IMG/VR virus record: IMGVR_UViG_3300037635_000456
Span: 1 to 48,524 of that record
DNA length: 48,524 nucleotides
Direction: 5' to 3' (one strand)
Source of the DNA: a virus
Shown here: in pieces, positions 9,252-22,643 of the stretch
Layout: every line of letters starts with the position of its first letter
Numbering within the stretch: the stretch's first letter is position 1
Position numbers and translations under genes: made by a program
The notes under the pieces: generated by a model
Database searches by the model: none
What the model was told of the DNA's origin: nothing
The model's input: only the letters and a program-made list of their open reading frames with translations

Positions 9252-11645
9252 CTATGATGCCCTCAATCCGAATGGCGTCTCACCTAAGTGTATACTTCTT
9301 ATCCTAGCTGAGCCAGCCACTCCCACTTCAAATGTATCACTTCTGTAACCTGTAGGCAATCTAAATATGCTGTCAGATGTTATTGTGTTTTCGTAAACTA
9401 ACACCTTGTCAACCCAAAATCTAAAGGTAACAGGTAATGCTCCAGGGATGTCTTGCAAATATGATGTCAAGTTATCTTCATGTATAGGCGCTGAGTTTAG
9501 CGTATCAAGCTCTAGTACCGTAGCATTATTAGCATTTGCAGTAGGCCCATTGACTGTACCTATCTCTGCATTGTTCGCCCATATTGTGGTGTTTGTCACT
9601 GGCACTTGCGCATTTACACCGATTAAAGCATTAGTTTGAGAATCAGGTGTCGCGTAATCAGCAATAACCCTAGCCGCCCCAAGATTAAGGTAATCTTTTG
9701 TTGTGATTGTTTTTGACTTCCACTCTAGCGGGGCAAGCGGTTCAGTACCTTTATCCCACTCAAACAAATCCCCTTGCTGCCCAGATACAAAATAGAAATT
9801 ATTAGTGTCGGGGTCTGCGTAAGCCGCAGTAAATGTATAATCTACAGATACAAAATACCCGCCAATCCGTTGGTCTTGTTCAAAGATAAAAGACCCTGAT
9901 GAGTGTGATCCAAAGTATTTGCCGTTATAATAAGCACCTACTACAGTTTTAGGGTCAACTGTATCATTCCATGTATCCCAATCGTGAACAAATTTGGTAA
10001 TCAAATCTAGCCCTGCAGCTGGGTTATACACAGCCATACCCGCATACGTAGCGTACATAACACCAAATCCCATATTAACTACTGAGTCTTTTGATAGGCA
10101 TGGATATGGTGTATCAATTCTAGCGATGTCCATATTTTGCGGTGTACTACCCGTAATCTGATAGGCGTACTCTTCAGTTAAAGCCACAATAAATCCAGAG
10201 GCTACCCCTAGCGCTACAATGTTATACTCTGTAGTTAGCCTAAATTTTGCAGGCCATGCGTACGGCTGGTACGGTAGGGAGAAACAAACTTGGTTTCCAA
10301 AGAATCCAACGAACACACCGTTTGCAGCAAGAGCTAAGCCTTGCATATTCTCAGGCGGTGCATCGTTATCAGCGCTACCTAATATTGTTGAAAGATTGCT
10401 GAACAAGAAATCATCTACAAAATGAAAAGGATCACTTAAAGCTGGATCTCCAAAATATCTAGCATCTTCATCTTGTGACTCAGCAACATCAAAATACCGT
10501 TTACCTGCAGTATCAACCGTAGTAACTTTGTCGGCTCCAGAATCTGCATATGTAATAGTTTTGTGTCCAGTAACAGAAAGCACAATACCGTCTGTTATGT
10601 TAAAAGAAGAATCTGTACACCCCGATATTTTAAATCTGTCACCCTCAGCTAAGTTGTGGTAATCAGAAAACTCAACTGTGGCTATGTTGTTTGTCCTAGC
10701 TACAGTAGCTAAGCTAACAGGATACCAAGCATCAGTAAGCTTATAGTAGGCTGTTCCTGATGCTGTAGGTATTGTACGATATAGCCTCATACCTCGTATA
10801 AAGTTATAAGTGGGAACAGCAGGTGGCGCTGTAGGCAAATTCGTAAGCGTTACAACCTGCCCCTCTTTAATAAAATCACTGTCTGACGGTTCAGAGGGTA
10901 TAGACTCTTCACCCCAAGGTGTGATCCAAGTGTAGATATAATTGCGTGATTGAGTAGTACCAGCGAGATCAACTTTACCATTTGTATCAGCTGTAGATGC
11001 GGTGTTATCACCTGTATTAAAATACTGAAGGCTTGTGTCACTAAGTTTTGTGGCTGTTACGTTAGTAGAATTAAACGTTTCTGGAGTAGTACCTGTAAAA
11101 TCACGTACAGTTATAATGTTGCCAGTCTTAATGTTATGATTCCCATTAGTCACAACAGTAGCTTGATTAGATGAATCTCTTGCGAAAGACGCTGTATCAA
11201 GTGTGGTAAACGGTGTAACCGATGTATTAGGTTTAACATCTGGTAACGGTAAGCCCAGTTGGTAGTACCCGTTAGCTGTGGGATACGGAGCTGCACCAGA
11301 CACAGCTAATTCAAAAGTGGATACTTTCGGTGGGCCATCACCCGTATAATAAAACCGCTGCTCATCTTCCTCAAACGCATCACCTTGTGACGCCTTAACA
11401 ACATCTACACTGGTAGTCCAAGAAAGCCATTTTACATCTGAAGTACTGGGGTCAGTAAGCGGGTATAAAGTTTTGACTGTACCAGTTCGTCCTATATTAG
11501 AATCTAGTACAGGCTTTCTGTAAGGTATTAAATCTCCTGAATACAGCTTAGCATTGTAGGCAGTTTGAGCTGCGCCATCAGGCAACAACTCTGTAGTTAT
11601 TCTGGGTGCTTCGCCTAGGAATTTTAATAACTTAACTGACGCCAT
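9252..11645 (-). CDS. Tail nozzle or tubular-protein-B-like tail protein, 797 aa
   Basis: The N-terminus, LGEAPRITTELLPDGAAQTA followed by YNAKLYSGDLIPYRKP, matches the pattern at the start of podovirus tail hub or nozzle proteins (T7 gp12-like), where L-PDG-A-Q-A-N-SG-L-P-R recurs. The rest is almost all beta-strand prone: VTLTNLPTAP, YNFIRGMRLYRT and PFGLRAS at the end, as expected for a beta-propeller-based nozzle. Its length is close to the 794 residues of T7 gp12. It begins with a TAATG overlap with the endolysin stop. Placement after the lysis genes and away from the adaptors at 21346-22643 is unusual but seen in mosaic phages. The assignment rests on pattern and length, so it is moderately sure. 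Confidence 0.65.
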   Translation of the reverse strand: MASVKLLKFLGEAPRITTELLPDGAAQTAYNAKLYSGDLIPYRKPVLDSNIGRTGTVKTLYPLTDPSTSDVKWLSWTTSVDVVKASQGDAFEEDEQRFYYTGDGPPKVSTFELAVSGAAPYPTANGYYQLGLPLPDVKPNTSVTPFTTLDTASFARDSSNQATVVTNGNHNIKTGNIITVRDFTGTTPETFNSTNVTATKLSDTSLQYFNTGDNTASTADTNGKVDLAGTTQSRNYIYTWITPWGEESIPSEPSDSDFIKEGQVVTLTNLPTAPPAVPTYNFIRGMRLYRTIPTASGTAYYKLTDAWYPVSLATVARTNNIATVEFSDYHNLAEGDRFKISGCTDSSFNITDGIVLSVTGHKTITYADSGADKVTTVDTAGKRYFDVAESQDEDARYFGDPALSDPFHFVDDFLFSNLSTILGSADNDAPPENMQGLALAANGVFVGFFGNQVCFSLPYQPYAWPAKFRLTTEYNIVALGVASGFIVALTEEYAYQITGSTPQNMDIARIDTPYPCLSKDSVVNMGFGVMYATYAGMAVYNPAAGLDLITKFVHDWDTWNDTVDPKTVVGAYYNGKYFGSHSSGSFIFEQDQRIGGYFVSVDYTFTAAYADPDTNNFYFVSGQQGDLFEWDKGTEPLAPLEWKSKTITTKDYLNLGAARVIADYATPDSQTNALIGVNAQVPVTNTTIWANNAEIGTVNGPTANANNATVLELDTLNSAPIHEDNLTSYLQDIPGALPVTFRFWVDKVLVYENTITSDSIFRLPTGYRSDTFEVGVAGSARIRSIHLGETPFGLRAS

Positions 11646-13940: not shown

Positions 13941-15956
13941 CTAGTTAATCTGCGTCCAAGTCCCTGTAAACGCATCATCCTCATCTAACTGACCTTGTGC
14001 ATTGTAACCTATACCAAATATTGTACCATCGGACATGTAAGCATATTGAGTGCCCGCACTGCTGTACGAATACCCAACACCTTGGAAAGCAATAACTTTA
14101 CGAGAAACTTGCCCCGACCAAAAATGATCAGCTGAAAAACTTTCAGTGGTATTCCACGGGGCTGCATCCAACCGAGGCTTGTTTAGTACAATATTAGCTG
14201 TTAAATTTCTGTAGTACTCAGTGTTTGAGTTATAGCCAAATTTCCAAATCCTACCGTCTCCGTCTCGCATGTACCACTGGCCTGTATTTTGTCCATTAAT
14301 ACCTTTAGCAGGCCATACCTGTAAGATATTAGTCTGTGGAAACGCAACTGCTGTAGAAGTAGGAGCACCCTCACAATCAGTAGATGAACAAGTATTAGTA
14401 TATAGTGTAGCCGTGCCAGGGCCAGAAGGAGAATTTACGGTAGTGGTAGTTCCGTTGCCGCAAGCGCCTGTAGCGTTATAACCCCACGTATAGACTTGAG
14501 CGCCAGAGGTAAGCATGCCACCTGGAGTTCCTCCTATACCAGCGCAACTAAGATCCCTAGAGTTACCTGTGTAATAAAAACTAGAAAAAGTTATAGAAGA
14601 CCCAGCTCTGGTAAACCCATTTTTATCTGTAGTGGTGCCATCACCTACTTGCCCATTGCCGTTTTCTCCAGCGCCATACAGCTCACCACTTGTATTTAAA
14701 TAATGGCTGGTGCCGTCCCATGTCCAAGAAGTTGTGTAGTAAACAGCTGTAATAATGTTAAATTGGTAAACGTCAGACGCTGCTGTGGTTTGTGTGAATA
14801 CTGATCTAGATGTTGTAGATCCATCACCAAAATGCCCGTGACCATTAGACCCTGTAAAATACAATTTCCTGTCTGTGTCTACAATAGCGGAAGATTGATA
14901 CCCACTTTGCACCATCATAACATCATCAACTTGATCAATGAGCTGTGGGCGTGATTGGTTAGCGGTGCTACCTGTACCTAACCCATTACTAGCACCATAT
15001 CCCCAAGCGAATAGTCTAAGGTTTTCATCAATAGCAAAACATCTATTGTAGTTACGATACCCATCCCCACCGTCAGATAAATGGAACCCAACGATTCTTG
15101 TACCTAGATTGTTATGTGTCTTTCCTGGCCCGAAGCATGGGACTTTAACAAGCCCGTAATAATGAGTTGTGTTGCCTGTGCCAAGTTGTCCATAGCCATT
15201 ATAGCCTGCCATAAACAATGACCCTTTATTTGTAAGGCAAGCTAACACACCACCTGTACACCAAAGTCTTACAAAATATTCACCATCAGCTAAACCACCA
15301 TACTCATGAAATATTGGGACACTAGTACCAGTTTTACCTTTATTACCTGCGCTTGCGCCTCCAAAAAAATATTCATCAAAACCCCATGTTACAACTTCAT
15401 GGTTCTGATTTAGATATACAGTACTTCTATATTTTCCGTATATATGATTGCTAGGGAACATAACTGGCCCCATAGCGGGATTAGGTATTCCGCACTCAGG
15501 AACCCAGTTATTAGCATAGTCTGCTAACCAAGCCCTGGAACCAGAAGCTCCGTATGTGTTACTGGCGTTATGAGCTACAACTTGATCATAGTTAGGTAGT
15601 AAGTACTTATCAGACTGAACATTAGTTTGTTGTACGTTACCAAATACAACATCGTTGCCGCTTACTGTAAGTACTTGTCCAGCATTACCCCTAGCTAATC
15701 TAACAGTGCCATTACCATCATGTGTAAGTATATCACCTTGCGTAGTTAGTGGGTTAGACCCTGCGGCCATGACATTCCAATGTGCTGAGTTAGCATTAGT
15801 AGGCGCACCAGCTGCCGTGCCTGTCTTTGCCGCAGCATTTACGTAAACCCAAGAGGAACTTGCGTAGCTAACAACATCATCTTTTTCATAAGTTGTACCT
15901 GTGGCAAACGCCCCTTTCCAAGTAAACTTAATTTTTCCTACATCTATTGTTGCCAT
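13941..15956 (-). CDS. Tail fibre or spike with RCC1-type beta-propeller repeats, 671 aa
   Basis: The N-terminus (FTWKGAFATGTTYEKDDVVS, then W-V-Y about 10 residues on) looks like a carbohydrate-binding module 5/12-type segment followed by a linker. From about residue 247 to the end there are repeated RCC1-like units: LFMAGYNGYGQLGTGN, LFAWGYGASNGLGTGS, LYFTGSNGHGHFGDGS, LYGAGENGNGQVGDGT, VYTWGYNATGACGNGT, IWKFGYNSN and IFGIGYNAQGQLDE. The G-x-N-x-x-G-Q-L-G-x-G core is the hallmark of RCC1 blades, and seven to eight units would close one propeller. Eukaryotic RCC1 binds chromatin, but in a phage fibre position such a propeller is better read as a receptor-binding head (inference). It follows three other fibre-like genes in the same operon. 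Confidence 0.85.
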   Translation of the reverse strand: MATIDVGKIKFTWKGAFATGTTYEKDDVVSYASSSWVYVNAAAKTGTAAGAPTNANSAHWNVMAAGSNPLTTQGDILTHDGNGTVRLARGNAGQVLTVSGNDVVFGNVQQTNVQSDKYLLPNYDQVVAHNASNTYGASGSRAWLADYANNWVPECGIPNPAMGPVMFPSNHIYGKYRSTVYLNQNHEVVTWGFDEYFFGGASAGNKGKTGTSVPIFHEYGGLADGEYFVRLWCTGGVLACLTNKGSLFMAGYNGYGQLGTGNTTHYYGLVKVPCFGPGKTHNNLGTRIVGFHLSDGGDGYRNYNRCFAIDENLRLFAWGYGASNGLGTGSTANQSRPQLIDQVDDVMMVQSGYQSSAIVDTDRKLYFTGSNGHGHFGDGSTTSRSVFTQTTAASDVYQFNIITAVYYTTSWTWDGTSHYLNTSGELYGAGENGNGQVGDGTTTDKNGFTRAGSSITFSSFYYTGNSRDLSCAGIGGTPGGMLTSGAQVYTWGYNATGACGNGTTTTVNSPSGPGTATLYTNTCSSTDCEGAPTSTAVAFPQTNILQVWPAKGINGQNTGQWYMRDGDGRIWKFGYNSNTEYYRNLTANIVLNKPRLDAAPWNTTESFSADHFWSGQVSRKVIAFQGVGYSYSSAGTQYAYMSDGTIFGIGYNAQGQLDEDDAFTGTWTQIN

Positions 15957-15965
15957 AACTTCACC

Positions 15966-16472
15966 CTAACTCGTTGTTAATATTAGATGCCCGCTAGTGT
16001 TTATACTTACCTGCATATCCCCAGGTACAAACAGAGTTGCTGGGTAATCTGAATCTACATAATTATCTGTGCTGCCAGAAGCTGTGTAATCAATTTTTAA
16101 GTCGTCACCGTCTACGTAAAACCCATAGTATTCTATACGCTGCCCACCGCCGCCTTGAGTCTGTGTGAACAGATCATTTATAAGAGCTGCTACAACTCGC
16201 ATCTCTACTCTATCACCAGTACTAAACGCTCTAGCTGTAGTGCCATCTTGCGCCCGCACAATAGTCAAAGCATCAGCAGACCTATTAGTACATTTTACAA
16301 TCTCTGTGTTTAACGCTGTGTCAATAAGTGTAATGTAAAAGTAATCTGTGCCAGAGCTTGTCACAGCTGGAAATAACGCTCCCTCGCCTGAGGTAAGGTT
16401 TATAGTAGTATCTGTAGTGTTTATACCACCTGTCAACGTGCTCTTAGAACTATTTGAAGCTACAGCTACCAT
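15966..16472 (-). CDS. Short tail-fibre protein with shared N-terminal module, 168 aa
   Basis: Residues of about 8-102 (STLTGGINTTDTTINLTSGE, FPAVTSSGTDYFYITLIDT, LTIVRAQDGTTARAFSTGDR) are the same module found at the start of the next two upstream genes. This pattern (strand, sharp turn, E-I-V-K, L-T-I-V-R-A-Q-x-G-T-T-A) is typical of the N-terminal adaptor of phage tail fibres. After it come GGGGQRIEYYGFYVDGDDLK and a short beta-rich tail ending near ILTTS. It is much shorter than its siblings, so it is either a minimal fibre or the remnant of a longer one. The start is the ATG at 16472, one base overlapping the neighbour's stop. Confidence 0.75.
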   Translation of the reverse strand: MVAVASNSSKSTLTGGINTTDTTINLTSGEGALFPAVTSSGTDYFYITLIDTALNTEIVKCTNRSADALTIVRAQDGTTARAFSTGDRVEMRVVAALINDLFTQTQGGGGQRIEYYGFYVDGDDLKIDYTASGSTDNYVDSDYPATLFVPGDMQVSINTSGHLILTTS

Positions 16473-17650
16473 TAGCTATTTACCTCCAACGGGGCGTCAG
16501 TAGCCACTTTAGTAGTGCCCGTACCATCTAATTCTGTCACAGTCATAGTAGCTACACCACCAAAAGGTAAATACATGTTATGGTTTGATGATATAGTAAA
16601 ATGTATACAATACCTTACAAAATCTGTTGTACTTGGTGTATCATAGGTAGCAAACCCACCTGTGTGAACATGAGCAGCGCTGTTCCAAGAAGCTATAGCA
16701 TCAGCTTCGTCATTGCTTGTACCATCGCCCCCGCGTCTAATATGCCCAACATTTTTTGTAGTCGCTGATGCTGTTGTACCCGCTGTAGTAGTAGCCGTAC
16801 TTCTTCCAATCGTAGCGTAACTATAACCTGAACTACTATAAAAAGTTCCTGATACTTCTATAAGGAATACGCTTTCATCAGACATAGGCTTAAGAATTAC
16901 TGCTAAAATATTATGTGTTCCGTTATTTACAGGGGTTAGCGAAAACTCATTTGTTGTAAACCCTGCGGTAGTCCACGTTTGGCCAGTTGTAGGAAACTTA
17001 CCATTATTATTACCAGCTTCCCCTGAAGCACTGGCTGAAGCGCACACTACATATTTATTTAATATAGGTGAGTTAAGTGGTAGCCATTCACTATTCTGAG
17101 CGTAAAACTCTGGTCTAGCTCCTCCGTAATGATCGGTGTTATATCGTATGTGGCCTGTTTGAGGTGACACTGGCCTTTGAGCTGTAGTACCTTTCGGAAG
17201 ACTAAAAAACCCAGTGTTAGTGTTATTTTGGCTAGAAAAATCAGTAACATCTAAGGCTGAAAATCCTGCAGCGCCACTTGTGCTTGTCAGTACTTGCCCG
17301 TTAGCAGCAGCCTGACTAGGAAGTATTTCATCTAGATCAGATAATATAATAAGCCCGCCAGCTGTAACTCGTAGCTCAACTCTGTCATTGGTGCTAAAAG
17401 CTCTAGCCGTAGTTCCTTCTTGTGCTCTAACAATAGTTAATGTGTCAGTACTTCTAGCAGTTACTTTTACTATCTCTAAATTATTTGATGTATCCAGCAG
17501 TGTGGCAAAGAAATATTGACTACCTGTAAGCGTAGGAAACCTAGCTCCGTTACCTGCAGTTAATACAATAGAGGTAGCAGTAGTAGCGTAGGCTTGTGAC
17601 AACGTACCATAAGCATTGTTAGCAAACTGTATATCGTGATAATTTGTCAT
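16472..17650 (-). CDS. Tail-fibre protein, second member of the module array, 392 aa
   Basis: I start this at the ATG at 17650, which overlaps the upstream stop as ATGA, instead of at the in-frame TTG at 17668 inside the upstream gene. Residues of about 8-100 carry the shared module (FANNAYGTLSQAYATTATSI, EIVKVTARSTDTLTIVRAQE). Then come TGFFSLPKGTTAQRPVSPQT and GHIRYNTDHYGGARPEFYAQ, a common phage fibre linker, and a beta-rich C-terminal domain (about 200-392) with FLIEVSGTFYSSSGYSYATI, which resembles the distal domain of the next upstream gene. Probable receptor contact at the far end. Confidence 0.75.
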   Translation of the reverse strand: MTNYHDIQFANNAYGTLSQAYATTATSIVLTAGNGARFPTLTGSQYFFATLLDTSNNLEIVKVTARSTDTLTIVRAQEGTTARAFSTNDRVELRVTAGGLIILSDLDEILPSQAAANGQVLTSTSGAAGFSALDVTDFSSQNNTNTGFFSLPKGTTAQRPVSPQTGHIRYNTDHYGGARPEFYAQNSEWLPLNSPILNKYVVCASASASGEAGNNNGKFPTTGQTWTTAGFTTNEFSLTPVNNGTHNILAVILKPMSDESVFLIEVSGTFYSSSGYSYATIGRSTATTTAGTTASATTKNVGHIRRGGDGTSNDEADAIASWNSAAHVHTGGFATYDTPSTTDFVRYCIHFTISSNHNMYLPFGGVATMTVTELDGTGTTKVATDAPLEVNS

Positions 17651-19776
17651 ACTAAATTCCCGTTCCAATGTGCGGTAGTATCAAGACCACCTGGAATATC
17701 AAACCCAAAAGACCCATAGGGGTACACGTATTCCTCCACAACCATTACAGTACTACTACCAGGTTGATATTGAAGAGATGCCGTGCCAGTGTTAGTTTCT
17801 CTATAAAGCTGTAGTCTAAACCTTATTTTATCAGTTACCCCAGGTCTAAAATATTGTACCCCCATAATACCATTATGTACGTGAGCGTTAAGATGCCACA
17901 GTCCCGCAAGATAATTATTGTCGTCTGAAGCACCGCCTACGTTATCGCCATCATTGTGGGTGACGTAATCTCCAGTCGATCCGTTTTCAGTGAAAGGCTG
18001 CTGGGTAACGCCAAAAACTGTATCAGTACTATCGGTGTCAGGCCATGTGCCAGGAGTAACCTGCCCTCTAGAAAACCCAAATACTTCGGCAGCACTCGAA
18101 AGTGGTGTAGTACTGTTAACACTAGAGTTAAACTCAGGCTGCTTGAACCTGTCTATATGCATATGCCGACCCACTAAAAACACTGCTTTAGCTGCGCTAT
18201 TATCTAAAGGATTTTTATATGTTCTGCTATTATTTGGCTGTGGATCAGCGTCAATGTAATCACAATAAAACCCTAATCCTGCATAACTTGCACCCTGGTA
18301 AGCGGTGCTATAAAGTTTAATGGTAAACACAGAATTTACACTTAATGGTTTAACAGTTATACCAAAATGACCGCCAGCAGCTGTTGGGTAATCACCATTT
18401 GTTTCATTTGTCGCGTAGTTAAAATAATATTGTGTACTAGAAATCCGCCCCGAACCTGAATGATTATGTCCTGTGGCTACATATACATTTGCAATTTGCC
18501 CTGACACGGGCATATAAGCGTCTTCTTTTGTATTAGTTACAGTCTGGCTATTCATAGTTCTAGCTGCAGGTGCTGTAGCTTCTCTCTTATAATAAACACC
18601 ATCGAATCTAGAAGCGCTATACTCTTCTCCGAGTTGAGTAACCCTAGAGTTATAGAATTGTATCCTAACTCCGTTGGGGATAGTTATATTATTATTTAGT
18701 GTTAATGTGACATTCCCAGATGGTGGCCCCGCAGTCTTCTGGCATCCTGTTACATGTGTCCCTGGTGGTACATTTACCAAGCTAGCATCTACTGCAGGGG
18801 GAAACACAAATTTACCAATGTAATCTTCAGCTGACTCAGAACCATCAAAAGTAAGAAAGCTACCTGGGCCACCGCCCCTTGGGTTCATGTTAAGTAAGCG
18901 TCTTACATTATTAATAATCAGTGTTTGACTCGCACTAACAGCCCCGATTACTTCAGCTGTGGCCCATTCTCCGTACGCACCATACTCATCATTATTATCA
19001 GATACGTTAGCTAGATACACTAACGAACCTTCTTGTATAGCTATATCATGACCTTCAGCATTTCCGTACTTGTCAGCAATATCGGTTGACATTGCATAAC
19101 CACCGCTAGCATTTACACTAGTAGAAGCGTTTAGATATCTGGCAAATGTAGTCCCACGCATGTGTGATAAATCATAGTGCCCTCGCACAGGAATACTTAA
19201 AAACCCCGTACTAGTGTTGTTATCGTCAGATATATCGGCTGGGTTAAGGGCTGTGTAAGTAGCATTTGTGCCATCGGATTTTATTGCGAATTTAATATCC
19301 CGATCACGCCCTCCCACGCTGGATGGTAAACCTCCTGTAGTAACTACACCGTTAGGCCCTATGTACTTTGTAGCAGTAAACGAGGGTGTAGTAGATCTAA
19401 ATTCAAATCTATCAGGCTGTGTAGGAACATCGGGTAGTACGTTTTCTAGATCAAACAAATCGTTGACAGCGTTAGCTGTAGTTCGTAACTCTACAGAATC
19501 TCCAGCTGAAAATGTATTATTGAGGTTTCTAGCAGACCCATTTGCTTGCTTAACAGTAAGCGTATCCGCAATCCTATCAGTAACCCGCATAATTTCTGTG
19601 TTAGTACTAAGCGCTGAAGAAGTAACTGTGATATAAAAATATTCACCATTTGTTACAGTGGGGAACTTTGACCCCTCACCACCTAACAAAGATAAAGTAC
19701 CTTGGTTAGCAGAAACACCTCCTGCTAAGGTGCCTTTACTATTATTAGATACTTTTACTTCAGAGTAGCTTGCCAT
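17647..19776 (-). CDS. Large tail-fibre protein, first member of the module array, 709 aa
   Basis: Residues of about 8-115 are the shared module (GTLAGGVSANQGTLSLLGGE, EIMRVTDRIADTLTVKQANG). A beta-rich shaft follows with TGFLSIPVRGHYDLSHMRGT, close to the TGFFSLPKGT linker of its sibling. The C-terminal part (about 410-709) has many short strands and His/Asn-rich turns (VATGHNHSGSGRISSTQYYF, NAHVHNGIMGVQYFRPG) and an aromatic end. The matching AHVHTGGFATYD in the sibling suggests the distal domains are also related. Probably a fibre with a binding tip. It starts right beside the stop of the 146-residue tail gene. Confidence 0.75.
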   Translation of the reverse strand: MASYSEVKVSNNSKGTLAGGVSANQGTLSLLGGEGSKFPTVTNGEYFYITVTSSALSTNTEIMRVTDRIADTLTVKQANGSARNLNNTFSAGDSVELRTTANAVNDLFDLENVLPDVPTQPDRFEFRSTTPSFTATKYIGPNGVVTTGGLPSSVGGRDRDIKFAIKSDGTNATYTALNPADISDDNNTSTGFLSIPVRGHYDLSHMRGTTFARYLNASTSVNASGGYAMSTDIADKYGNAEGHDIAIQEGSLVYLANVSDNNDEYGAYGEWATAEVIGAVSASQTLIINNVRRLLNMNPRGGGPGSFLTFDGSESAEDYIGKFVFPPAVDASLVNVPPGTHVTGCQKTAGPPSGNVTLTLNNNITIPNGVRIQFYNSRVTQLGEEYSASRFDGVYYKREATAPAARTMNSQTVTNTKEDAYMPVSGQIANVYVATGHNHSGSGRISSTQYYFNYATNETNGDYPTAAGGHFGITVKPLSVNSVFTIKLYSTAYQGASYAGLGFYCDYIDADPQPNNSRTYKNPLDNSAAKAVFLVGRHMHIDRFKQPEFNSSVNSTTPLSSAAEVFGFSRGQVTPGTWPDTDSTDTVFGVTQQPFTENGSTGDYVTHNDGDNVGGASDDNNYLAGLWHLNAHVHNGIMGVQYFRPGVTDKIRFRLQLYRETNTGTASLQYQPGSSTVMVVEEYVYPYGSFGFDIPGGLDTTAHWNGNLV

Positions 19777-20228: not shown

Positions 20229-21005
20229 TCAGGTGCTAAAGAGTTGCAACGCGAACTCTTTGTTCAAAGGAGGCGTTTCGCTGATTAGCCCCGCTGAATT
20301 AAATAACCCGCCGTCCCCCTCAAAGAATGCACCTATCTCATACGTGTTGTCAGATGCACTAATTGAATCTACCACGGGCTTACTGCTTTGTAAAACTATA
20401 TTTTGAGAAATTGACACACTGTCTGACGGTGTTAAAGTAGGTAAAATCCTTGTGTAATCAAATACATCAGTCATACTAACTGAGTCGGTAGCCATTGTAG
20501 CTGACACACTGAAAGTTAGGTCATCAGCTATATTAGCTGTGTCTTGTGGGTTAATACCGACATTAAACAACTGCGCATCAGATAAACCAAAAGAATCGGC
20601 TAGTGGCCTGCTCACAGTAATAAACGGGGTGTCAGCTATACTAGCTGTGTCAACTAGACTAGCGCTTGCGTCAAACGTTAGTACTTCGTTAATAGTCACA
20701 GTGTCAATATACAATGGCTCTATAGAAAATAGTGGGGTACTATCCGCTACAGAGAAATTGACTGCTGGAATAAAAGTTACAGGTATAGATTTAGTAGTAA
20801 GGAATATCTCGTGGTTTAGTGTATTAAACGAAGCTCTATATATCACCTCAGTTATTATAGGTGACGCGGATATAAATACTTCGCCGTCTTGTGGTTCTGC
20901 TCTAAGTACTATCCCAGGATTATCATACTCAGCTTTAGCCGTACTAGCCGATACGCCCAGAGCCAACGCACCTTTAGCAGCGGCTTCTACGCGTATGCGA
21001 GCCAT
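20229..21005 (-). CDS. Tail protein with seven 18-residue D-S/T-x-x-x-x-D repeats, 258 aa
   Basis: Residues of about 98-230 contain seven tandem units that open with DTVTINE, DTASIAD, DSFGLSD, DTANIAD, DSVSMTD, DSVSISQ and DSISASD. The spacing is 18 residues for most units, 19 and 21 for two. Each unit is Asp, Ser/Thr, alternating hydrophobic, Asp, then a beta-prone stretch, as expected for a repetitive beta fold. The ending is EIGAFFEGDGGLFNSAG and then a short tail. Such repeats occur in long phage structural proteins and adhesins. The paired acidic residues could bind Ca2+ (inference). It starts with a TAATG overlap after the Ig-like protein. Confidence 0.7.
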   Translation of the reverse strand: MARIRVEAAAKGALALGVSASTAKAEYDNPGIVLRAEPQDGEVFISASPIITEVIYRASFNTLNHEIFLTTKSIPVTFIPAVNFSVADSTPLFSIEPLYIDTVTINEVLTFDASASLVDTASIADTPFITVSRPLADSFGLSDAQLFNVGINPQDTANIADDLTFSVSATMATDSVSMTDVFDYTRILPTLTPSDSVSISQNIVLQSSKPVVDSISASDNTYEIGAFFEGDGGLFNSAGLISETPPLNKEFALQLFST

Positions 21006-21345: not shown

Positions 21346-21996
21346 TCACCCAAAAGCCACTGGTTTAACACGTAGCGAGTTTCTAGCAGCACCAAGGTTA
21401 GCCCTAGCTCTACGTTCTGCTGTCTTGTGTAAAAATTGTTTAGCATGATACGCTGCTAGTTCTCTATCTGACCAAGTTCTCTCAGGTAAAATCAATAAAT
21501 TCTGAAGCGCCCCGTGCATTATAATATTTTCTAGTTCATCAAAAGCTGTAGTGTCCATCTCTACAGATGTACGCAACGGTTTGACTGCGATTATCATACG
21601 TATCTCGTAAGTCTTTGCAGCATCTGGAGTAGGCCCGACAATAAATGTATCAGCGTCAAGCTGTGATATATGTGTAGGAACGCCATAATCAGCTGGAGCA
21701 GAGTCAGGCCATTTGGGGAATCTATCCTGGAACTCTTCCAGAGATAAAGTTCTCATACGTGCGCCATCGACAGTAGCACTAAGAAACGCATGAACCTCAG
21801 TGTTAGTAGGGGGGTCATAGGGATAATCATACACCCCGTTTGTTAGTGGTATCTTATTCTGAATATGTCTATACGCTAAAGTTTTTTCACATGCATCTAT
21901 AGCAGAGTCTCGTACATACTGCTCTATTACAGGCTGTGGACAACCTGGGACACTTGGAGATAGCCTTGTCACTAAACTGTCGAATCTTGTTGGCAT
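21346..21996 (-). CDS. Head-tail adaptor or tubular-protein-A-like protein, 216 aa
   Basis: No catalytic motif. The opening, VTRLSPSVPGCPQPVIEQYV and then RDSAIDACEKTLAYRHIQ, is the helical start of a common podovirus neck protein family. A YDYPYDPP turn, a short beta region, and a C-terminal ENIIMHGALQNLLILPERTW segment followed by an Ala/Arg/Lys-rich helix also fit. Its neighbours in the order portal, scaffold, capsid, adaptors support a connector role. Start overlaps the upstream adaptor stop as TAATG. Confidence 0.65.
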   Translation of the reverse strand: MPTRFDSLVTRLSPSVPGCPQPVIEQYVRDSAIDACEKTLAYRHIQNKIPLTNGVYDYPYDPPTNTEVHAFLSATVDGARMRTLSLEEFQDRFPKWPDSAPADYGVPTHISQLDADTFIVGPTPDAAKTYEIRMIIAVKPLRTSVEMDTTAFDELENIIMHGALQNLLILPERTWSDRELAAYHAKQFLHKTAERRARANLGAARNSLRVKPVAFG

Positions 21997-22643
21997 TAGA
22001 CAACCTCCTCTTCAGATATTCCACCACCTTCTGTATCAGTAATCTGCCTTGTCTGCGATGATATACCAAGTGCTTGTGAGAAAGACTGTTGGAAAAGTGC
22101 AGCTCGATTTGAGTTAACATGCTCATTGTCTATAGACTCAGCTAAGAATACTGTACCATCAATTATAGCAGGAAAATAAGCATCTGGTAAGAGGGCTACA
22201 GTAGCAGTACCTAGATAATCTGGAGGAGTCTGCGCGTACTCAATTTCAATCTGGTGACTAGTTGGAGCTTTAGGGTATATAAAAAATTTATTTGGATTAC
22301 GAATATTTCTAATCCAGTTTATGGTATTAGCCGCATTGTCTGTCATCCATGCGGGGTATGCTTGATCTAAAACTTCACGGGTGGTTTCTATAATACCATT
22401 CCCGTTAGTATTGTAATAGACCTCCATAAGTCTTATAGAATCAGAAGGAGCTGATTGTACTACTGTACCGTCAGCACAAGTAAGAGTTGTCTGCAGCGCA
22501 AATAAATCAGGTCTGAATATAGCCGCACGTTTCAGCGTTTGATTTGCAAATTTAAGAAGCATAGCGTCTGTATAGCGATATGCGTTTGAATCTGAATCCT
22601 GAATTATATTACGAACTTCTGCTACAACATCATTTAGAATCAT
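21996..22643 (-). CDS. Phage adaptor protein, DUF6682-like, 215 aa
   Basis: Residues 1-45, LNDVVAEVRNIIQDSDSNAY followed by RYTDAMLLKFANQTLKRAAI, match the opening of DUF6682-type phage adaptors that I recognise. Then come RPDLFALQTTLTCADGTVV and a C-terminal GTATVALLPDAYFPAIIDGT helix-rich part. These proteins bridge portal and tail in short-tailed phages. Its partner is the next gene downstream (21346-21996), with a TAATG overlap. It overlaps the end of the 105-residue gene by 14 bases. Confidence 0.7.
   Translation of the reverse strand: MILNDVVAEVRNIIQDSDSNAYRYTDAMLLKFANQTLKRAAIFRPDLFALQTTLTCADGTVVQSAPSDSIRLMEVYYNTNGNGIIETTREVLDQAYPAWMTDNAANTINWIRNIRNPNKFFIYPKAPTSHQIEIEYAQTPPDYLGTATVALLPDAYFPAIIDGTVFLAESIDNEHVNSNRAALFQQSFSQALGISSQTRQITDTEGGGISEEEVV

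Follow-up and report, generated by a model that had tools for sequence, protein, structure and literature searches.

The window analysed here is the whole of virus record IMGVR_UViG_3300037635_000456, 48,524 bases long, and its subject is a run of four genes, here lettered A, B, C and D, the first three of which encode proteins that start with the same N-terminal module and find their best PHROGs matches in tail-fibre families. By sequence comparison, A, B and C are old paralogues under purifying selection. The smallest of them, C, is on the same grounds a constrained protein and not a wreck; rather than a damaged copy, it is probably a stub whose receptor-binding tip is supplied by the next gene. 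What is new is that the C-terminal tail of C resembles the C-termini of fibres encoded directly before genes that carry the N-terminal domain of D. On balance we favour the interpretation that C and D together make up a two-piece fibre, which would stand beside A and B as self-contained fibres. The parts of the locus on which the argument turns are:

17647..19776, minus strand: gene A, tail-fibre protein of 709 residues with N-module, central part and head (open reading frame (ORF), matches to phrog_8469 and 8jov_1)
19441..19776, minus strand: N-module of A, residues 1-112 (alignment, 8jov_1 match, module tree)
17728..18522, minus strand: head region of A, residues about 419-683, a homologue of the B head (hhalign)
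16472..17650, minus strand: gene B, tail-fibre protein of 392 residues with N-module, short shaft and head (ORF, 8jov_1 match)
17333..17650, minus strand: N-module of B, residues 1-106 (alignment, 8jov_1 match, B clade in the module tree)
16529..17092, minus strand: head region of B, residues about 187-374 (hhalign)
15966..16472, minus strand: gene C, 168 residues with N-module, helix and conserved tail (ORF, substitution rates, predicted model)
16161..16472, minus strand: N-module of C, residues 1-104 (alignment, predicted fold)
15966..16160, minus strand: tail of C, residues 105-168 and stop, the proposed acceptor for D (association by hidden Markov model (HMM))
13941..15956, minus strand: gene D, 671-residue RCC1-repeat protein without the N-module, proposed to be a separate adhesin that docks on C (RCC1 match, association)
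15621..15956, minus strand: N-domain of D, residues 1-112 (profile comparison with relatives)

An earlier note on this DNA had described three consecutive fibre genes of 709, 392 and 168 residues, falling in size along the gene order and sharing one N-terminal module. The positions and sizes proved correct, and so did the module, which is about 100 residues long. Smith-Waterman scores of the full proteins are 228 for A-B, 212 for A-C and 254 for B-C, against top shuffled scores of 94, 65 and 71 (200 shuffles each), and not one of 18 pairs involving the neighbouring proteins D, E, F and G reached its pair's top shuffled score. The modules thus stand well beyond both the shuffled and the neighbour background, at identities of 38% (A-B), 46% (A-C) and 55% (B-C). 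The likeness of A and B extends further: local alignment finds a second short stretch beyond the module, and the distal heads are homologous (hhalign probability 98%, E 2.7e-13). Gene A matches phrog_8469 (tail fiber) at 3.6e-19; in Pfam none of the three fibre proteins scored above a family cut-off, and NCBIfam gave zero matches in the six proteins scanned. The genes are tightly packed, the start of C overlapping the stop of B by one base and the start of D following the end of C after a gap of 9 bases. B has 392 residues when read from the ATG at 17650 and 398 from an upstream TTG. A regulatory scan found promoter- and terminator-like sites in numbers not above those in shuffled sequence. 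Among the entries of a predicted viral structure database, one of 168 residues is identical to C, and others, of 392 and 709 residues, carry similar accession numbers; the genome thus apparently has a public protein record.

The decrease in size along the gene order had led the note to a tandem duplication with distal parts changed or lost. In the form of a recent event, with progressive distal loss and C degenerating, this is very improbable. The synonymous divergence (dS) that the note had proposed to compare is 1.5-1.9 between the paralogous modules, near saturation. B was found in nine IMG/VR contigs; the order A-B-C is kept in eight of them, in two of which all three proteins are 100% identical to those of the window, and the ninth stops inside B. 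The length of C is 168 in seven of the eight contigs where it is visible. In a tree of 109 distinct modules (near-duplicate loci were dropped and then six identical modules, 115 becoming 109), A forms one clade and B another, each at 100/99; seven of the eight C rows form a third (100/98), which leaves the most distant, that of the locus L030, without a firm place. In the window group, the closest relative of a module occupies the same slot of another genome in 23 of 23 comparisons; the figures are 34 of 34 for 17 two-copy IMG/VR loci and 15 of 18 for Lessievirus. This faithfulness to the slot marks the paralogues as old. A clade uniting A, B and C is not rejected (approximately unbiased test, p 0.0546), a result compatible with a tandem origin within this lineage but no demonstration of it.

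Nor does C look like a gene in decay. Compared with four relatives, the ratio of nonsynonymous to synonymous divergence (dN/dS) is 0.27-0.38 for A, 0.13-0.31 for B and only 0.06-0.09 for C, much as for the nozzle gene of the same phages (0.07-0.09 with three of the four relatives); in A and B, distal dN exceeds module dN in every comparison. With all three ratios below 0.4, that of C the lowest, and with each slot keeping its own line, the idea of recent duplication and decay finds no support. The idea that C has simply lost its distal part fares no better: beyond the module C retains 62-64 residues, with no head of its own, and this 64-residue tail is 82-100% conserved among the 168-residue copies found and yields a profile that matches the C-termini of fibres of other phages. 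What stands of the note's reading is that the three fibre genes are homologous, with a single type of anchor module and distal parts that differ, as seen in the alignments and in two related loci. The variation among related phages that the note had advised looking for is there: in L028 both the module and the tail of C are retained (62-63% to the window across about 175 residues) before the protein continues into a Gly_rich_2 domain, and the third gene of L030 has Peptidase_S74 at residues 353-417 of 459, both of them visible exchanges of distal parts.

The case for joining C to D rests on which genes elsewhere end as C does. Loci with the D-type N-domain were collected from IMG/VR (the best 80 of 516, many of them related; as for the nozzle and Lessievirus loci considered below, ORFs were taken from the match strand only). 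An HMM made from seven window-group C tails was run against the last 90 residues of the genes directly upstream of the D-type genes. The controls were the C-terminal 90 residues of every other complete ORF of >=80 residues on the same strand in these loci (n=453), window-group loci being excluded from the 80 upstream genes and the controls alike. At E<=1e-3 it matched 28 of the 80 upstream genes and 2 of the 453 controls; at E<=0.1, 49 and 3. A second-round HMM, trained on the first hits, matched 69 of 80 upstream genes, again with 2 of 453 controls; among upstream genes outside its training set the score was 41 of 52, and 65 of the 67 loci concerned had at least one match. The 80 upstream genes represent 66 distinct tails, 25 of which are among the first-round matches. 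The control matches of both rounds are the same two genes: one, in L151, stands before a D-type gene that is truncated where the contig ends, and the gene after the other starts without a D-type N-domain.

The fibres that end in this way are otherwise diverse. The 57 complete tail-bearing upstream fibres fall into nine N-terminal families by loose single linkage, one of which has 38 members; Pfam's T7 tail-fibre N-domain is present in one of the ten upstream fibres scanned, and the module seen in A, B and C occurs among upstream genes in the window group only (6 of 86). Among the nozzle, Lessievirus and other module-scan loci, the tail is confined to the window group, and so is a full-length D-type N-domain. 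The association is thus one in which tail and D N-domain stay paired while the anchor side and the head side change. In three of three marine phage records, one filed under Autographiviridae, a D-type gene lies 18-38 bases after an annotated tail-fibre gene; the end of the HTVC024P fibre aligns with the C tail (conditional E 5.9e-7, or E 1.2e-4 for a search of 1000 sequences), and the fibres of the other two gave no significant score against the C-tail HMM. The fibres of L115 and L116 resemble the C tail by eye, and the first HMM gave no significant score for them. As a fusion of module and D N-domain in one protein, L095 was considered and rejected: this sole match outside the window group covers profile positions 71-112 only. 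Two further observations concern the arrangement of such genes. In L170:1447-5777 five D-type genes follow one another, and the gene before the first has the acceptor tail. Genes of 103-108 residues that end in the acceptor tail directly before D-type genes look like small acceptor proteins:

L146:6101-6418, small tail-ending gene
L149:1170-1487, small tail-ending gene
L150:2770-3081, small tail-ending gene
L152:1415-1726, small tail-ending gene
L192:2645-2971, small tail-ending gene

D itself matches RCC1 in Pfam (3.8e-18), has no match to the module HMM and, in the window, no Pfam match to CBM_5_12. RCC1 repeats are best known from eukaryotic proteins; those of D are presumed to be its head. 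Among ten D-type proteins scanned, seven, of 656-722 residues, have RCC1 repeats, and three, of 253-292 residues, are without them. CBM_5_12 appears near residues 16-46 in seven of the ten, in three above the Pfam cut-off. The D N-domain was also found in seven phage records, those of six pelagiphages and one uncultured phage.

The module ties A, B and C to a known tail. Residues 7-119 of B match residues 4-114 of 8jov_1, the putative tail fibre of Ralstonia phage GP4, at 1.2e-21 (phmmer), and the N-terminus of A matches it at E 9.3e-7. A structure model of C, built from an alignment of 41 rows (the window and IMG/VR loci), has a mean predicted local distance difference test score (pLDDT) of 79.5, with blocks of residues 11-90 averaging 90-97, and finds 8jov_1 as its best counterpart in the PDB (Z 15.8, root-mean-square deviation 2.3 A over 113 aligned residues; the next row has Z 11.1; Foldseek, 2.4e-8). 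A model of B, with a mean pLDDT of 35.5, was not used. According to the PDB the fibre is present in 18 chains and three further proteins of the entry in 12, 12 and 6; all three have sequence relatives encoded near the fibre genes of the window, which on that evidence are taken as adaptors and nozzle:

21996..22643, minus strand: relative of the GP4 12-chain protein 8jov_2, taken as adaptor ring (E 2.9e-13)
21346..21996, minus strand: relative of GP4 gp81 (8jov_G, 12 chains), taken as adaptor ring, SU10_adaptor (E 3.5e-11; PF24175, 2.6e-11)
9252..11645, minus strand: relative of the GP4 6-chain protein 8jov_A, taken as nozzle (E 5.8e-57)

The 18-chain fibre of GP4 is reportedly located on the nozzle. 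That the window belongs to a short-tailed phage with a GP4-type tail is part of the explanation that, taken as a whole, we consider somewhat better than an even bet. Two side observations concern neighbouring genes. The nozzle relative exceeds most Lessievirus counterparts by ~215 residues, chiefly owing to insertions near residues 125-215 and 306-407 that are common to the aligned relatives of the window group. A counterpart of window positions 20229-21005, L012:3569-5440, is much longer (623 residues) and matches in two separated stretches.

In the arrangement that we propose, A, B and C would be joined to the tail by one type of N-module, at a position suggested by GP4; A and B would carry heads of their own, homologous to one another; and C would be a short anchor whose conserved 64-residue tail serves as acceptor for D. 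The N-domain of D would dock on that tail and the RCC1 propeller would be the receptor-binding part. Reading tail and N-domain as a docking pair makes C with D the third fibre, so that three fibre types (A, B and C+D), presumably trimers, might be displayed at the same time. In L028 the tail would have to serve as a branch point within the protein, in the manner of the branched fibres described in PMC6872550.

The note's suggestion of three adaptors for the same socket corresponds to a different arrangement, in which A, B and C, as interchangeable fibres, contend for a single ring of equivalent sockets and give mixed virions, D being unrelated and attached independently. The shared module speaks for it, as do 21 module columns that are conserved across all three slots, and multi-copy arrays are common. 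A nozzle-alignment scan (the best 80 of 464 encoding stretches, with module copies identified by the module HMM) gave 36 nozzle loci with an upstream adaptor gene, 20 of which have two or three copies (three in 6 and two in 14), 14 have one and 2 have none, counted without de-duplication. A section of PMC10269572 moreover puts this idea forward for Lessievirus. However, 29 further columns, length differences included, are diagnostic of the slot, and together with the fidelity of the slots they suggest differentiated rather than interchangeable anchors; the association of C with D would be left unexplained. We therefore hold interchangeable fibres to be unlikely.

We are similarly sceptical of the proposal that C is a self-complete short fibre, mechanical or a plug, its tail a mere cap, and that D is either a hitch-hiker or a receptor binder that recognises sugar and sits at another place. 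The very low dN/dS of C would suit such a part, as would L028, and short or almost module-only genes exist elsewhere (108 residues in L098; 167 in L032, L043 and L070). The gene in L098, at 2644-2970, has 6 residues after the module and precedes a module gene with a pectate-lyase-like part. A mere cap would not account for the presence of the same tail at the end of long fibres that have other N-termini and are encoded immediately before D-type genes, nor for its near absence from the other same-strand genes of those loci.

Several observations count against joining C and D. Among nozzle loci, with near-duplicates dropped, 12 of 14 module genes with <=125 post-module residues have a non-module gene of >=170 residues as the next gene, as opposed to 7 of 67 longer ones. 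The 125 and 170 cut-offs behind that contrast were chosen post hoc, and six of the 12 short cases are copies of C, namely that of L022, which is identical to the window's, and those of five relatives. Tree-independent pairing of short anchors with large next genes is not significant: at the same cut-offs an average of 2.8 pairs agree, 0.5 are opposite and 2.7 show no difference. That a short C occurs only where D is present is contradicted by L028, which keeps D with a long C; a headless C is therefore not required where D occurs. The D-type loci are a selection of the best, with many relatives among them, and 11 of the 80 upstream genes are without the tail even by the second-round HMM. Tail and N-domain, being adjacent in the DNA, could travel together without binding one another, and the CBM_5_12 matches allow the D-type N-domain to bind sugar instead of C. 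Finally, the portion considered here of the virion proteomics table for the Lessievirus phage JC1 lists gp56 and not gp57 or gp59, that is, one of three annotated fibres, and its structural-protein section names no fibre protein among those found (both in PMC9144972). This touches, through a relative, on the note's own refuting condition that a single one of the proteins be found in virions.

If C and D do form a two-piece fibre, short 'truncated' fibre genes would be anchors and their neighbours the receptor-binding proteins, which alters the choice of genes for host-range work; tail and N-domain would be a natural plug and socket on different kinds of tail, with predictions open to test on purified proteins. 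A broader proposal, on which we are evenly divided, is that marine phages share a portable connector, made of a 60-70 residue C-terminal acceptor tail and the CBM_5_12-like N-domain of an adjacent adhesin, that joins anchors of different kinds (T7-type, GP4-type and others) to heads that can be exchanged, RCC1 propellers among them. With the terms used, no title or abstract among the open-access papers searched was found to describe one. If the proposal is true, receptor-binding tips could be swapped between unrelated tails as whole genes.

The window resembles GP4 in its homologous N-module and in having relatives of three further chains of 8jov; compared with that structure entry only, it differs in having three module proteins, none of them with a Pfam match to Peptidase_S74. 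With the Lessievirus (Bcep22-like) phages it shares a set of at least three nearby genes that have one N-module in common and lie between the genes for adaptors and nozzle: five Lessievirus phages have 3-4 nearby module copies each, followed by a nozzle relative. Their 18 modules form a clade of their own, however (99/97), so that the arrays expanded separately or evolved in concert, and 18-24 kb stretches of the five phages showed neither a C-type tail nor a D-type N-domain. Lessievirus fibre arrays and the hypothesis of mixed virions are already in print, the latter credited to Gill et al. in a passage of PMC10269572. The module also has matches in several records of Wifcevirus, a group that differs in being contractile-tailed; a conserved second fibre of the group, be it the module-bearing one or another, is proposed in PMC11990801 to be mechanical.

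In two-piece or branched systems, as is proposed for C and D, an anchored protein has a docking site for a separate receptor binder; T4-type gp37/gp38 is one such case. Others, as outlined in part of PMC6872550, are the K1-5 adapter, G7C and KP32, in which the anchored protein bears a docking site for a separately encoded receptor binder. The docking proposed here differs in pairing a C-terminal tail with an N-domain that is CBM_5_12-like in relatives; for the T4gp10-like docking domain of the G7C/KP32 type, no Pfam family appeared at E<=1 in A, B or C. Comparable in gene order are marine pelagiphages, where a D-type gene comes directly after a tail-fibre gene and the C-type tail is clear in HTVC024P. 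Relevant sections of PMC3909814 count carbohydrate-binding proteins among candidate receptor binders, place the tail-fibre gene and genes of that kind among marine phages' variable genes for host recognition, and find no discernible similarity among the C-termini of the tail fibres compared. The N-terminus of those fibres is given there as T7-like, whereas the anchor in the window is of the GP4 type.

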